54,237 nt of DNA, taken from NCBI GenBank assembly GCA_001567305.1, contig JYPD01000010.1, positions 1 to 54,237 on the forward strand, given 5' to 3'. The DNA comes from a candidate division WS6 bacterium OLB21. Its GTDB lineage: Bacteria > Patescibacteriota > Dojkabacteria > B142 > OLB20. Shown here one piece after another: positions 1 through 36,674 of the stretch. Below the pieces are notes generated by a model that saw only the letters and a program-made list of their open reading frames with translations, was not told the DNA's origin and did no database searches. Each line of letters starts with the position of its first letter. Positions within the stretch are counted from its first letter, which is position 1. Made by a program: the position numbers and the translations under genes.

Positions 1-966
1 TTGTCAGACTGCAGGATCAATTCCTAGCAATGTTTTCTCGGATAGATTAAGGTCAGACGGTGAGATTGAACAATCTACACTCCTAAGAACAATAACCGAG
101 TCTGTAGTACCGCTTGTTCTCGTTTCATCTGCATTCGCTCTTCTTGCCGCCAATACTATTGCTTATCCACAGGTCGGTTTGTACGCACTTGCTTGGATTA
201 AAGATAGAAAACGCTACTTACCTTGGGGTATTGTCTACGACTCAAGAAATAAAAAACCAATTCCGTTTGCTGTCGTTCGGCTTTATCAGGAAGGAATGCT
301 AGTAGTTGAAAGACTAACTGATATGTCAGGAAGATATGGAATGGTGGCTGATCCAGGTAGTTATAATCTGGTTGTCGAGCATACAGACTATGCTCGTATT
401 GCCAGGAAGCTGGAAATTACAGAAGAAGATTCAACAGTTAGTGAAGATTTCGCTCTAAGTATCGGCGAAAATAGCTCTGCCGCAACAAGAACTAAACTAA
501 GAGAGGTCTTAAGAACCATTAATAACCTTGTGGTTTTATATCGGATTTGTGTTTGCGATTGTGATCACAGTCATCTCTCCTGTACTGATTAATTTCTTGG
601 TTGTTGGCATTTTATATTGTTCAGTTTGTTATTGTTGCGATTCTGGAAAATCTATCTAAGCGAAGATGGGGATACATATTTGATTATCAAAGCAAAAGTA
701 GGATTCCTAGAGCCTTTGTGCGCTTGTTTAGCGTTGCTGAAGAAAGACAAATTGATGTTCAAATCGCGGATGATCAAGGAAGGTATGGATTCTCTGCGGA
801 ACCGGGGGAATACAGAATCAAGGTTGATGCAGACAACTATCAGATGGCAGGAATCAAAGACGGTTTTCTTAGGGTTAGTATCGATAAGGCCGAGAAACTA
901 AACAAGAATATTGCTATGGAAAGATCTTTGCAGAAAGGTGCAAGCAAAGGTTTCCTTTCTACCTAG
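1..966 (+). CDS. Membrane protein with carboxypeptidase-regulatory-like repeats (5' partial, frameshifted)
   Basis: The reading frame is open from the window edge, so the start lies upstream. The visible part holds a hydrophobic stretch (about 107-172), a soluble domain (about 215-470), two more hydrophobic segments (about 525-650) and a second soluble domain (about 660-930). Both soluble domains open with the same pattern, W-G-x-x-x-D-x(3)-K-x-x-I-P-x-A-x-V-R-L, and carry S/G-R-Y-G followed by P-G-x-Y. This is typical of carboxypeptidase regulatory-like (Ig-like beta sandwich) folds, here repeated between membrane spans. The frame changes near 535 and near 616, probably sequencing indels, because the protein pattern continues across both. 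It meets the minus-strand neighbour tail to tail with a 4-base overlap. Function is unknown; a cell-surface or envelope role is inferred. Confidence 0.6.
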
Positions 967-1607
967 CTGTAAAATAAGGCAACTTGATTAGTGAAGGCTG
1001 AGTGTTTCTTTAGAATTGGCTTCCATGCAGCTTGATTACTGGCAACCAAATCAAGGCTAAATTCGGCTTGTGGTCTTCTGTAGAACTCGACAATTCTCAG
1101 CTCTTTATCGTTCTCGGAATCCGTGAAATCAGGGTGACCTTTATAACCGTAGTCAGGGAAGTCAGGATTATCGATTTTTACAAAATGACCAAAACCAGCA
1201 ATAACAGCCATTCTTGCCGTCCAGGAATGAGGCATATTTCTAGCTAAAACCCTTTTGTTATCCGAGTATAAATTATAGCTACTTGTGCCTTCTAACCATC
1301 TTCCCTGTATTACGCTTAATTGATAATTTGGTAAGAAATGTAACATCGAAGATCTAAATAACTCACCGGCTTTTAAGTCACATACAGATATGTTTGGATT
1401 GTCGGGATTTCTTGTGGATACATCTATACGGAGTCTTGATTTACCTTCAACCCAGAAATGCGCATGATAAGGTATACCAAGGACTTCTTGTTGAAAACAG
1501 ACATCATCGCTTGTGATCGTGTATTTTATAGAACCACGCTCAGATCCGTACTCGCCAGAATATCTGTTATTCCCAATGATTGTATAGAAAGGATCGGAAT
1601 TAATCAC
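963..1607 (-). CDS. Hypothetical protein, 214 aa
   Basis: Intact frame starting ATG at 1607 and ending TAG at 965-963. I do not recognise the family. The protein is soluble-looking, with no clear membrane segment or signal peptide, and is rich in aromatic residues and histidine. Its N-terminal third resembles a beta-rich fold, with alternating short strands and turns (G-N-N-R-Y-S-G-E-Y-G). It diverges from the csoR-like gene at 1695 across an 87-base spacer that holds the regulator's promoter and operator, and it overlaps the preceding plus-strand gene by 4 bases at its 3' end. Codon use matches the neighbours. No function is assigned. Confidence 0.5.
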   Translation of the reverse strand: MINSDPFYTIIGNNRYSGEYGSERGSIKYTITSDDVCFQQEVLGIPYHAHFWVEGKSRLRIDVSTRNPDNPNISVCDLKAGELFRSSMLHFLPNYQLSVIQGRWLEGTSSYNLYSDNKRVLARNMPHSWTARMAVIAGFGHFVKIDNPDFPDYGYKGHPDFTDSENDKELRIVEFYRRPQAEFSLDLVASNQAAWKPILKKHSAFTNQVALFYS

Positions 1608-1658: not shown

Positions 1659-1688
1659 TTTACACCCCCTAGGGGTATATGATATTAT
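1659..1688 (+). promoter_or_regulatory. Promoter with CsoR-type operator in the spacer
   Basis: A -35-like TTTACA (1659-1664) is separated by 18 bases from TATTAT (1683-1688). The spacer contains the G/C-tract palindrome ACCCCCTAGGGGT (within 1661-1679), the kind of site bound by CsoR/RcnR-family repressors. The ATG of the csoR-like gene is at 1695, about where transcription should start, so the mRNA may be leaderless. Confidence 0.6.
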
Positions 1689-1694
1689 TTATTT

Positions 1695-1931
1695 ATGAAA
1701 AGCACAGAAAAACGGATAAACATCATTACTGGACAACTTGAAGGCATTAAAAAGATGATCGATGAAGGAAAAGATCCTTTATCTGTGTTAACTCAATTTA
1801 AAGCAGCAAGGTCAGCTTTAGATTCATGTATGAGTTCGTATATTAACGAGCATTTTTGGCAGATTCTTGAATCTTGCGATGATAAAGAAGCAACATGCAA
1901 ACGCTTTCTTGAGGAATTAATTATTTCTTAA
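1695..1931 (+). CDS. CsoR/FrmR-family (DUF156) transcriptional regulator lacking the Cu ligands
   Basis: The 78-residue all-helical protein has the family's length and pattern: R-I-x-x-I-x-G-Q-L-E-G-I at the N terminus, Q-x-x-A-A-R-S-A-L in the middle and E-H-x(3)-I after it. Canonical CsoR binds Cu(I) through Cys-His-Cys. Aligned to that pattern, the first Cys is Pro28, the His is kept (His53) and the second Cys is Ile57. Three other cysteines are present (45, 61, 68). It probably represses its own promoter through the palindrome at 1661-1679. It is followed after 17 bases by thioredoxin and then by thioredoxin reductase, so a thiol or redox signal is a reasonable inference, not shown. A canonical paralogue is encoded at 32667. 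Confidence 0.8.
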   Translation: MKSTEKRINIITGQLEGIKKMIDEGKDPLSVLTQFKAARSALDSCMSSYINEHFWQILESCDDKEATCKRFLEELIIS

Positions 1932-2317: not shown

Positions 2318-3247
2318 ATGGCAGACATTCATAATGTTGTTATTATTGGTTCCGGACCAGCAGGCCTAACGGCTGCTATTTATCTTGCTCGTGCCAATCT
2401 AAAGCCTGTTGTAATCGCTGGTCTTGAATTTGGTGGACAACTTATGAATACAACCGAGGTTGAGAATTTTCCGGGTTTTCCTGAAGGTATTATGGGTCCA
2501 GAATTAATGCAAAAGATGCTCAAGCAAGCCGAACGCTTCGGCGCAGAAATCAAATTCATAAATGCCGATAAGGTGGATTTTTCATCTGACGAAAAGAAGG
2601 TATATTCCGGAGAACAAGTATTTAATGCCAGATCAATTGTGTTGGCAACAGGTGCTTCACCAAAAAAATTAAATTTAGAAAGTGAATCCAAGTACTGGGG
2701 TAAAGGCGTTTCAAGCTGTGCAACCTGTGACGGAGCTTTCTATAAAGGTAAAGTTGTAGCAGTAGTAGGTGGTGGTGATAGCGCTATGGAAGAAGCACTT
2801 TTCTTAACCAGATTTGCCTCAAAGGTTTATGTCATTCATCGCCGTAACGAATTTAGAGCCTCGCAAATCATGCAAGATAGAGTCCTTAAGCACGAAAAAA
2901 TTGAACCTATTTGGGATTCAGAGGTAGTCGAGGTTCTTGGAAATGAAAACATTGTAACAGGTCTTCGCCTAAAGAATATCCAGACATCTAAGGAGTCAGA
3001 ATTGTCCGTAGATGGAATGTTTCTTGGTATAGGTCATATTCCTACAACATCATTTTTGCAGGGTTCTGTGGATTTAGATGAACAAGGCTACATAAAAGTC
3101 TCCGATAATACCCATACCAACATAGAAGGAGTATTTGTGGCTGGAGATGTCCACGACCATAAATACAGACAAGCGATTACTGCGGCAGGTATGGGTTGTA
3201 TGGCAGCATTAGATGTTGAGAAATGGCTAGAATCTAAAGGCTATTAA
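2318..3247 (+). CDS. trxB: Thioredoxin reductase (NADPH, FAD)
   Basis: Flavoprotein disulfide reductase of the low-molecular-weight bacterial type. It has the FAD-binding G-S-G-P-A-G near the N terminus, the redox pair C-A-T-C-D-G near residue 135, the NADPH-binding G-G-G-D-S-A with the downstream H-R-R pair, and the C-terminal G-D-V-H-D FAD motif. An in-frame TTG lies two codons upstream; I prefer the ATG at 2318. It should transfer electrons from NADPH to the thioredoxin encoded just upstream. Its 3' end overlaps the convergent Nudix gene by 14 bases. The G-D motif is followed by K-Y-R-Q-A, the usual FAD-contacting end of the enzyme. Confidence 0.95.
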   Translation: MADIHNVVIIGSGPAGLTAAIYLARANLKPVVIAGLEFGGQLMNTTEVENFPGFPEGIMGPELMQKMLKQAERFGAEIKFINADKVDFSSDEKKVYSGEQVFNARSIVLATGASPKKLNLESESKYWGKGVSSCATCDGAFYKGKVVAVVGGGDSAMEEALFLTRFASKVYVIHRRNEFRASQIMQDRVLKHEKIEPIWDSEVVEVLGNENIVTGLRLKNIQTSKESELSVDGMFLGIGHIPTTSFLQGSVDLDEQGYIKVSDNTHTNIEGVFVAGDVHDHKYRQAITAAGMGCMAALDVEKWLESKGY

Positions 3248-32666: not shown

Positions 32667-32943
32667 ATGAATCATAAACACGATAAAAGCGCTAAAACAC
32701 GAGCCATTCACAGGATTAAAATCGTTAAAGGTCATTTGACTAAAATCCAGAAAATGCTGGATAACGATGAGTACTGTGTTGGTATTGTGCATCAATCTCG
32801 CGCTGTGCAAAGTGCGCTTAAAAAAACTTGATAGCCTGATCATCGAAAACCATCTTAAGACTTGTGTAATCGATCAAATACAAAATGGAGAAGAGGATCG
32901 AGTTGTGGCTGAACTGTTAAAATTATTTGATTACAAAGATTAA
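32667..32943 (+). CDS. csoR: Copper-sensing repressor CsoR (frameshifted)
   Basis: The joined 91-residue protein has the canonical Cu(I) ligands of CsoR: Cys37 in E-Y-C-V, and His62 and Cys66 in N-H-L-K-T-C. The N terminus is His-rich. An extra A in the A7 run (32820-32826) breaks the frame between V-Q-S-A-L-K-K and L-D-S-L-I; this is a likely sequencing error. It should release its operator when Cu(I) binds, switching on the HMA-TauE and CopA genes downstream. Unlike the paralogue at 1695 it keeps all three ligands. Confidence 0.85.
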
Positions 32944-34363: not shown

Positions 34364-36674
34364 ATGGTTAAAAAGACTTTTCCAGTGATCGGTATTCATT
34401 GTGCTGCATGTAAGCAACTTCTGGAGAAAAGCGTCGGGTCGCTTGACGGTGTGTCCAAGGTCCATGTCAATTTTGCCACAGAAAACATAACCATTGAGTT
34501 CGACGAAACAAAAGTAAGCAATGGTGATCTTGAGCTTGCAGTTAGTAGCGTCGGAAAATACAGGTTGATCATCGAAGACCAACCTAAAGATCATCATGCC
34601 AAAATGCTCAAACAAGATGAATATAAAAGACAACTGAAAATCTTCAGATATGTTCTTCTAGGTAGTCTCCCGTTCTTTGTGATTATGCTCTTAATGTTTC
34701 TATCTCAGCTTGGACTTATAGAACTTGATCATAAACCTTTAGGAAAAATTATGTTCAGCGGAAGTGATTACGAAATCAATCTCTTTTTCCTAATTCAATT
34801 TCTGATTGCCACTCCATTGGTTTTTCTGGGGGGCAGGGATATTTTTGTGAGCGCTTATAATGCCTTGCGTGCAAGGACGGCAAACATGGACAGCCTGATT
34901 GCTCTGGGTACGGGCGCAGCGTGGTTGTTTTCGACTATCGTTACCTTTGTGCCTGATGCTTTTTCCGAAATAAATGCCGATGTCTTCTTTGAAGCTGCGG
35001 TTTTTATCATCCTGTTTATTTTGCTTGGCCGACTTCTTGAAGCTAAGGCTAAAGGGCAGGCAAATGATGCAATCACAAAATTGCTTGAATTGCAGGCAAA
35101 AGATGCGACGGTAATTAGAGATGGCATAGAGGTCAGAATCCCAATCGAGCAGGTAATAGTCGGAGATATTATTGTTGTTAGACCTGGTGAAAAAATCCCG
35201 GTTGATGGTGTTATCACTGAAGGTTCATCTACTCTTAACGAATCAATGGTTACCGGCGAATCTATTCCGGTTACAAAAAGTGCAGGAGATCAAGTAATAG
35301 GCTCCACAATTAACAAAACGAGCAGTTTTAAGTATAAGGCTGAAAAAGTTGGCAGCGATACTATGCTTGCCCAGATTATACAATTAGTTGAAGAAGCTCA
35401 AGGCACTACTGCTCCAATTCAAAAAACTAGCCGATCAGGTATCTTCGGTTTTTGTCCCAATAATTATCCTTATCTCTATTACGGCTTTAGTATTTTGGTT
35501 GCTGATCGCTCCGCAGCTAGGTCTGATATATCCAGAAATAAATCCACTTAGACTTGCAGTTTATATTGCCGTAACAATTCTAATCATAGCCTGTCCCTGT
35601 GCTTTGGGACTAGCAACTCCAACGGCTTTAATGGTTGGAACAGGAAAAGCAGCCAGCAAGGGGATTTTAGTTAAGAATGCTCAGGCCTTAGAATATGCTC
35701 ACAAAATAGACACCTTAATCTTTGATAAGACTGGTACTCTCACCAAAGGGTTCCCCGAAGTAAAAGAATTCATTTCTATCGATTCCAGTAAAAATGATGA
35801 AATCCTAAATCTGGCACATGCGGTAGAACATTTATCCGAACATCCTCTGTCTTTAGCAATAGAGAAATACGCGTTGGCAAATACAAAATCAATAGATAAG
35901 CAATCAAAAGTAAATGATTTTAAAATGCTTGAAGGACTTGGAGTCGAGGGAAAAGTTGGTAAAAACTCTGTTTCCATAGGGAACGCCAAACTAATGAATC
36001 TAAAACAAGTCTCTATTCAGCCAGAACTTGGTAAAAAGTCAGAAGAACTAACAAGACTCGGCATGACAGTTATTTATCTGGCAGTGAATAATAATCATCT
36101 GGCAATTTTTGCCATTGCCGACACTATAAAAGAAGAATCTAAAGAAATAATTGAGAAGATTAAAAGCTTTGGGATTAAAACGGTCATGCTTACCGGAGAC
36201 AATGAAGGTGCAGCAAATTACATTGCCAGGTCGCTTTCCTTGGATCAAGTATATGCAGATGTTTTGCCTGCAGAGAAATCACAGATAGTAAGCAGGTTGC
36301 GAGCAGAAAAAGGAGGGATAGTGGCAATGGTTGGTGACGGGATTAACGATGCTCTAGCACTTGCCAACGCAGATATCGGTATTGCTCTTGGTACAGGCAC
36401 TGATATTGCTATTGAAGCTGCCGATATAGTTCTAATTAAAGGGAATTTACGAAAAGTATTGCAGACAATAGAACTATCGAATTCAACTCTAAGAGTAGTT
36501 AAACAGAACTTGATCTGGGCTTTTTCCTACAATGTTCTTGCGATTCCACTTGCTGCAGGAATATTATTTCCATTCACAGGGATTCTGCTTTCGCCTGTAA
36601 TTGCAAGCGCAGCTATGGCATTCAGCTCTGTTTCGGTCGTTCTAAACAGCATAAGATTAAAAGGCAAGATATAA
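34364..36674 (+). CDS. copA: Cu(+)-exporting P-type ATPase CopA (frameshifted)
   Basis: P1B-type ATPase of about 770 residues. It has one N-terminal HMA domain (I-H-C-A-A-C), the actuator T-G-E-S, the transmembrane Cu-site C-P-C, the phosphorylation motif D-K-T-G-T-L-T, the S-E-H-P-L nucleotide-binding motif and the hinge G-D-G-I-N-D. The frame changes at the A6 run near 35425, between T-A-P-I-Q-K and L-A-D-Q-V-S; this is a probable indel. It exports Cu(I) with ATP, guarding the cell under CsoR control. The start follows the cupredoxin-domain gene by 7 bases. C-P-C marks a monovalent copper or silver pump. Confidence 0.93.

Follow-up and report, generated by a model that had tools for sequence, protein, structure and literature searches.

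A CsoR/RcnR-family regulator lacking both classical cysteines upstream of thioredoxin genes in the WS6 bacterium OLB21

Described sensors related to the locus

CstR is a persulfide-sensing CsoR-like repressor whose targets are rhodaneses, CoA-persulfide reductase and sulfite exporters, and the hallmarks of FrmR are an N-terminal Pro2 and Cys35. The copper ligands of Mycobacterium tuberculosis CsoR are Cys36, His61 and Cys65 (positions X, Y and Z). The cysteine at position X has been termed absolutely conserved in the CsoR/RcnR family (PMC5146963). A thioredoxin is involved in the case of TTHA1953 from Thermus thermophilus, a CsoR-family repressor switched by cysteine oxidation, as the first gene of its regulon encodes the thioredoxin SoxW (PMC10318464). 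In Nostoc, the ArsR-family protein RexT is a thiol repressor of trxA2 and is reset by TrxA2 (PMC8960804). In the literature searched, no paper describing a csoR-like-thioredoxin unit of CPR was found, nor any joining CsoR with CPR and thioredoxin.

The regulator gene, its operon and its predicted operator

The window, i.e. the whole stretch of DNA that was analyzed (54,237 nucleotides of contig JYPD01000010.1 from candidate division WS6 bacterium OLB21), contains the following features of the locus:

1659 to 1688, + strand: sigma-70-like promoter of the operon, TTTACA-18 nt-TATTAT, 10/12 matches, with TG before the -10 element
about 1661 to 1679, no strand assigned: candidate G/C-tract operator ACACCCCCTAGGGGTATAT, within the promoter spacer between -35 and -10
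1695 to 1931, + strand: CsoR/RcnR-family repressor gene, 78 aa, ATG at 1695, stop codon ending at 1931
1875 to 1877, + strand: codon of Cys61, candidate sensing cysteine, 4 residues past the classical Z position
1896 to 1898, + strand: codon of Cys68, candidate sensing cysteine, in the third helix
1949 to 2290, + strand: trxA, thioredoxin with active site WCQPC (PF00085, E 3.9e-27; TIGR01068, 101.7 bits, cut-off 96.8)
2318 to 3247, + strand: trxB, thioredoxin-disulfide reductase (TIGR01292, E 4.1e-124, 413 bits, above cut-off)

The regulator gene at 1695 has no frame break and its product is MKSTEKRINIITGQLEGIKKMIDEGKDPLSVLTQFKAARSALDSCMSSYINEHFWQILESCDDKEATCKRFLEELIIS. Much of the preliminary description of this locus was confirmed: the family pattern is clear (PF02583, E 6.8e-16, 58.9 bits, cut-off 22.8); Pro28, His53 and Ile57 align with positions 36, 61 and 65 of M. 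tuberculosis CsoR, and Cys-His-Cys is thus Pro-His-Ile; genes for thioredoxin (PF00085) and thioredoxin reductase (TIGR01292) follow the regulator; and a candidate G/C-tract operator is found in its promoter, at 1661-1679 between -35 and -10. The interval given there starts at 1659 and so takes in the operator and promoter, the gene itself beginning with the ATG at 1695.

Besides matching the family profile, the protein has the predicted three-helix fold of PF02583. An AlphaFold2 model based on 32 locus sequences (mean pLDDT 91) shows helices at residues 4-23, 28-63 and 65-77, with Cys61 close to where helix 2 ends and Cys68 shortly after the start of helix 3. All of the top 20 PDB fold matches of this model were CsoR, CstR, InrS or FrmR proteins; the best E value (5.7e-3) is modest, as would be anticipated for a helical protein of this small size, and the best PDB sequence match was 7mq1, described as CstR of Streptococcus pneumoniae. 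The Cys-His-Cys Cu(I) ligands of copper CsoR are absent, as are the two cysteines of CstR at X and Z (Pro28, Ile57 in their place) and the FrmR hallmarks (the N-terminus is MKSTEK and a proline stands at X). The family cysteine at X is a trait of characterized sensors; many PF02583 proteins of the same class are also devoid of it. A sequencing or assembly error as the origin of Pro-His-Ile was ruled out, since the independent genome of WS6 OLB20 encodes Ala-His-Phe in the same operon. The cysteines of the protein are Cys45, Cys61 and Cys68.

The regulator stop codon is separated from trxA by 17 bases, and trxA from trxB by 27. Genes of copper export or chelation, which a copper CsoR controls, are not in this place; trxA and trxB come next. 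The trxB gene is the only thioredoxin reductase copy found in this 87%-complete genome, and a second thioredoxin is encoded on another contig. Matches to the AhpC/TSA and rhodanese families are also present in the genome and fit an oxidant/disulfide or a persulfide inducer alike. The divergent gene at 963-1607 (- strand) matches nothing in Pfam or NCBIfam, and its promoter-like site (1655-1628) adjoins the operator. Further out, at 179-966, two neighboring ORFs in different frames carry similar "GRYG" stretches and are possibly one gene broken by an indel.

The operon promoter (TTTACA at 1659, TATTAT ending at 1688) ranks among the top two promoter-like matches in the stretch, and the G/C-tract pseudo-palindrome that may serve as operator lies near the regulator's own gene, as in the CsoR/RcnR family. 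The pattern CCCCN1-4GGGG occurs at nine separate places in the whole genome (11 matches per strand vs 4 for the reversed pattern used as control), and only two sites are placed in promoters, both in the window, one before each PF02583 gene. The remaining sites are inside ORFs or form a hairpin between ATP-synthase genes; none of the seven other places, checked for a wider regulon, lies in a promoter.

Relatives of the operon and probable ancestry of the regulator

The nearest relative is found in WS6 OLB20 (JYNZ01000007.1), a member of the same family, where a regulator about 55-57% identical is followed by trxA (71% identical) and trxB (73%). The homolog of the 963-1607 gene beside the OLB20 operon is 30% identical, and the Nudix gene after trxB 46%. 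A profile search of 86 class genomes together with a genome-contig scan gave 49 members of the branch in the first tree, and a phylum search of 380 genomes added a few more. Among the 49, 42 distinct proteins have trxA as the next gene, in 10 cases with trxB after it, and three of the seven members without a detected trxA end at a contig edge (L074, L081, L100). The order csoR-like-trxA(-trxB), a survey of which in CPR had been proposed, is therefore widespread and not unique to this genome, its hosts being Dojkabacteria, Falkowbacteria, Shapirobacteria, Moranbacteria, Uhrbacteria and Parcubacteria. A narrow four-sequence profile at E 1e-12 matched only 13 of the 380 phylum genomes and the window-like subtype is therefore uncommon. 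Variant neighbors are trxB alone (L197), glutaredoxin (L192), a SLAC1-type transporter (L188) and an HlyD-type efflux protein (L083); L089 and L029 likewise precede a gene of one of these kinds and not trxA, all six being members of the branch or closely related to it.

Upstream of the regulator, a C3-6/N/G3-6 site was detected in 32 of the 42 trx-linked loci vs about 3% of shuffled upstream regions, the shuffling preserving base content only. In 28 of these 32 loci the C-tract is directly preceded by TTGACA (27 loci) or TTTACA (the window), and the site therefore fills the start of the promoter spacer. This near-constant block of predicted operator and promoter argues for real control of the operon. 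Four trx-linked loci (L009, L046, L019 and L048) have no G/C-tract site, in place of which palindromes resembling CTATACTnnAGTATAG lie at the start codon.

The 42 trx-linked proteins are related, so that the following counts are not independent events: 31 have cysteines at X and Z and a residue other than His at Y (Cys-x-Cys, the CstR pattern), 9 lack X with Z kept, 2 (the window and OLB20) lack both, and none has Cys-His-Cys. A tree was built without the ligand columns (78 columns only, many inner forks being unresolved), in which the CPR trx branch and Firmicutes CstR were split from Cys-His-Cys CsoR with support 98/95, and Firmicutes CstR was placed outside the CPR branch (96/77). The CstR rows in this tree are Firmicutes homologs assigned by fingerprint and, in the case of L095, also by gene context, as a rhodanese-like reading frame adjoins it. 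The predominance of Cys-x-Cys fingerprints among the trx-linked proteins, together with the grouping with Firmicutes CstR rather than with copper CsoR in these 78 columns, indicates that the window regulator is most probably a CstR-like repressor of derived type, from which both classical cysteines have been lost. A copper sensor with recent ligand loss was rejected, as the protein belongs to a separate, mostly Cys-x-Cys branch that groups with CstR. In the preliminary description the protein was regarded as a CsoR without ligand cysteines; the cysteine loss stands and the descent from a copper sensor does not. The split of the family suggested there was upheld for control of copper genes vs thiol-redox genes.

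The CstR proteins of Staphylococcus aureus, Enterococcus faecalis and S. pneumoniae (7mq1-7mq3) share with the window regulator the fold, the family, a G/C-tract operator and local autorepression (predicted here), and their Cys-x-Cys without His at Y also prevails in the CPR trx branch. They differ in their targets (rhodaneses, CoA-persulfide reductase or sulfite exporters for CstR, trxA/trxB for the CPR branch) and in their two cysteines, both missing from the window protein, which has the C61/C68 pair instead. Copper CsoR (Cys-His-Cys), including the second copy in the window, likewise shares family, fold and a G/C-tract operator; however, 37/37 collected Cys-His-Cys homologs are not trx-linked and the operator core differs, being CCCCTATAGGGGG with AT flanks in the copper CsoR vs TTGACA-CCCCNGGGG-TGT in the trx branch. 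Copper-type loci of the class show CCCCTATAGGGG-like cores with AT flanks, and some of the Cys-His-Cys genes precede genes with CxxC-type metal-binding N-termini, like the copper genes of the window.

This second CsoR (32667-32931), claimed earlier to keep all ligands and to control copper genes, does head copper genes, but its ligands are complete only across a frameshift close to 32820, in a run of seven A: the initial half, which holds the first Cys, ends at 32828, and His and the second Cys are in another frame. The frameshift reflects either an assembly error or a pseudogene. The copper P-type ATPase (34364-36674) is also divided into two ORFs (34364-35551 and 35388-36674) that overlap in different frames, probably through another indel; with both genes affected, indel errors in the assembly are likely.

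It can be considered that the window regulator is a repressor of the trx operon that responds to a metal bound at a new site, since His53, Cys61 and Cys68, for example, could form one. His53 (Y) is present in the window and OLB20 proteins, with two conserved cysteines close to it, whereas Glu, Asn or Gln occupies position Y in the majority of trx-linked relatives, and the CsoR/RcnR family is best known for metals. Nevertheless, no metal transport or chelation gene is found in the operon or was seen at homologous trx-linked loci, the copper genes of the window are headed by another CsoR, which is of the copper type and has an operator type of its own, and the same operon occurs in relatives without the His equivalent to His61 of M. 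tuberculosis CsoR (position Y), all of which makes metal sensing quite improbable.

Candidate sensing cysteines and proposed control

From the three cysteines suggested previously as sensors (45, 61 and 68), Cys61 and Cys68 are conserved, and Cys45 was ruled out, as it is Ala in OLB20 and is not conserved in L064 or L065. Cys61 is kept in the homologs from WS6 OLB20, Dojkabacteria Bin_125 (L065, with a one-residue offset) and Uhrbacteria (L064), and Cys68 in these three and in L188, this evidence comprising only four to five sequences. With the window protein, these four homologs form a subclade with support 96/80. The residues at X-Y-Z-61-68 are P-H-I-C-C in the window, A-H-F-C-C in OLB20, C-Q-C-C-C in L064 and C-N-C-D-C in L188; L065 has Y-K-C at X-Y-Z and the new cysteine pair offset by one residue. 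Both the old (X/Z) and the new (61/68) pairs are thus present in L064. The simplest reading of these sequences is that the new pair would have been gained first and the old one lost later, the order within the subclade being unsettled; independent gains of C61 and C68 are possible. In the branch as a whole, a single origin of the loss of the X cysteine was rejected (one clade of all X-less rows, p-AU 0.0046), and X was therefore lost more than once. Tentatively, and at somewhat less than even odds, this CsoR/RcnR branch of CPR may be a dedicated local thioredoxin regulator in which the sensing pair moved and a working thiol switch was relocated.

We infer from the anatomy of operon and operator that the regulator probably represses csoR-trxA-trxB, and we likewise infer the thiols that react, the reacting agent and the feedback loop. 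In the proposed mechanism, the reduced repressor would occupy the G/C-tract operator, which lies between -35 and -10, and would thereby block RNA polymerase. Under oxidation or persulfide load, Cys61 and Cys68 would replace the lost CstR-type X/Z cysteines as the reacting thiols and form a disulfide, a polysulfide or a mixed-thiol adduct within or between subunits. The modified tetramer would then leave the operator, allowing thioredoxin and thioredoxin reductase to be made, and the thioredoxin system would re-reduce the repressor, closing a homeostatic loop. The bridge chemistry known from CstR (X-Z') is impossible in the window protein because the X cysteine is absent. A switch in the Cys61/Cys68 region is plausible since Cys70 in loop 2 of Escherichia coli FrmR can form an inter-subunit disulfide (PMC5146963). 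The inducer may be an oxidant, a disulfide or a persulfide, among which the sequence does not discriminate.

The probability that the regulator is a thiol-switched local autorepressor of csoR-trxA-trxB, freed via Cys61/Cys68 and reset by thioredoxin, is estimated at about 0.55; this reading is favored because it joins the operon, the operator, the kinship with CstR and the conservation of the cysteines. By analogy, its logic of repression, thiol release and thioredoxin reset would be that of RexT, where it is established (PMC8960804), and of TTHA1953, where it is established in part (PMC10318464). TTHA1953 is, as proposed for the window regulator, a CsoR-family thiol repressor tied to a thioredoxin gene, but it keeps two cysteines (C39 and C68 in its numbering), its site of action is distant from the gene encoding it, and what it controls is sulfur oxidation. 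Like the proposed regulator, RexT represses a thioredoxin gene under a thiol switch and is reset by thioredoxin; it differs in its unrelated fold, its vicinal Cys40-Cys41 disulfide and its sensing of H2O2.

Sensing might also have been lost altogether, leaving a ligand-blind autorepressor that sets a low constant level of csoR-trxA-trxB. The fold can persist without ligands, since other lineages of the same class retain PF02583 proteins that lack the classical ligands, yet Cys61 and Cys68 are maintained between the window and OLB20 proteins, which are about 55% identical overall, as well as in two more relatives, and each of the nine X-less trx-linked homologs with trxB contains two or more cysteines (some N-terminal, some in a CxxC with Z), so that this explanation is regarded as unlikely. 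As an observation in its own right, a large group of such ligand-less proteins (L119, L129, L131, L112, L120, L136, L140 and L138) recurs in the class near a beta-lactamase-fold-type gene; most of the loci examined are also near dnaB or ribosomal protein L31-, prfA- and prmC-like genes, and no metal or redox gene was seen beside them.

Redox or persulfide sensing could instead proceed by one-cysteine or mixed-thiol chemistry, e.g. S-thiolation of Cys61, without a Cys61-Cys68 bridge. Two X-less trx-linked proteins of the same branch without trxB (L009 and L046) have one cysteine each, indicating that the branch does not strictly require a pair. In the subclade to which the window protein belongs, however, both cysteines occur together in the window, OLB20, L064 and L065, and a one-cysteine switch in this protein is held to be very improbable.

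To our knowledge, few redox regulators are known in CPR bacteria. If the thiol-switched autorepressor proposed here is true, the CstR-like-thioredoxin unit would be a recognizable thiol-stress regulon recurring across many CPR lineages, and a single 78-residue protein plus a 20-bp site would allow it to be tested in vitro. The lineage of the window breaks the rule of an absolutely conserved X cysteine in the CsoR/RcnR family and, as intermediates with both the old and the new cysteines still exist, would permit a direct test of whether a sensing site has moved within a fold.
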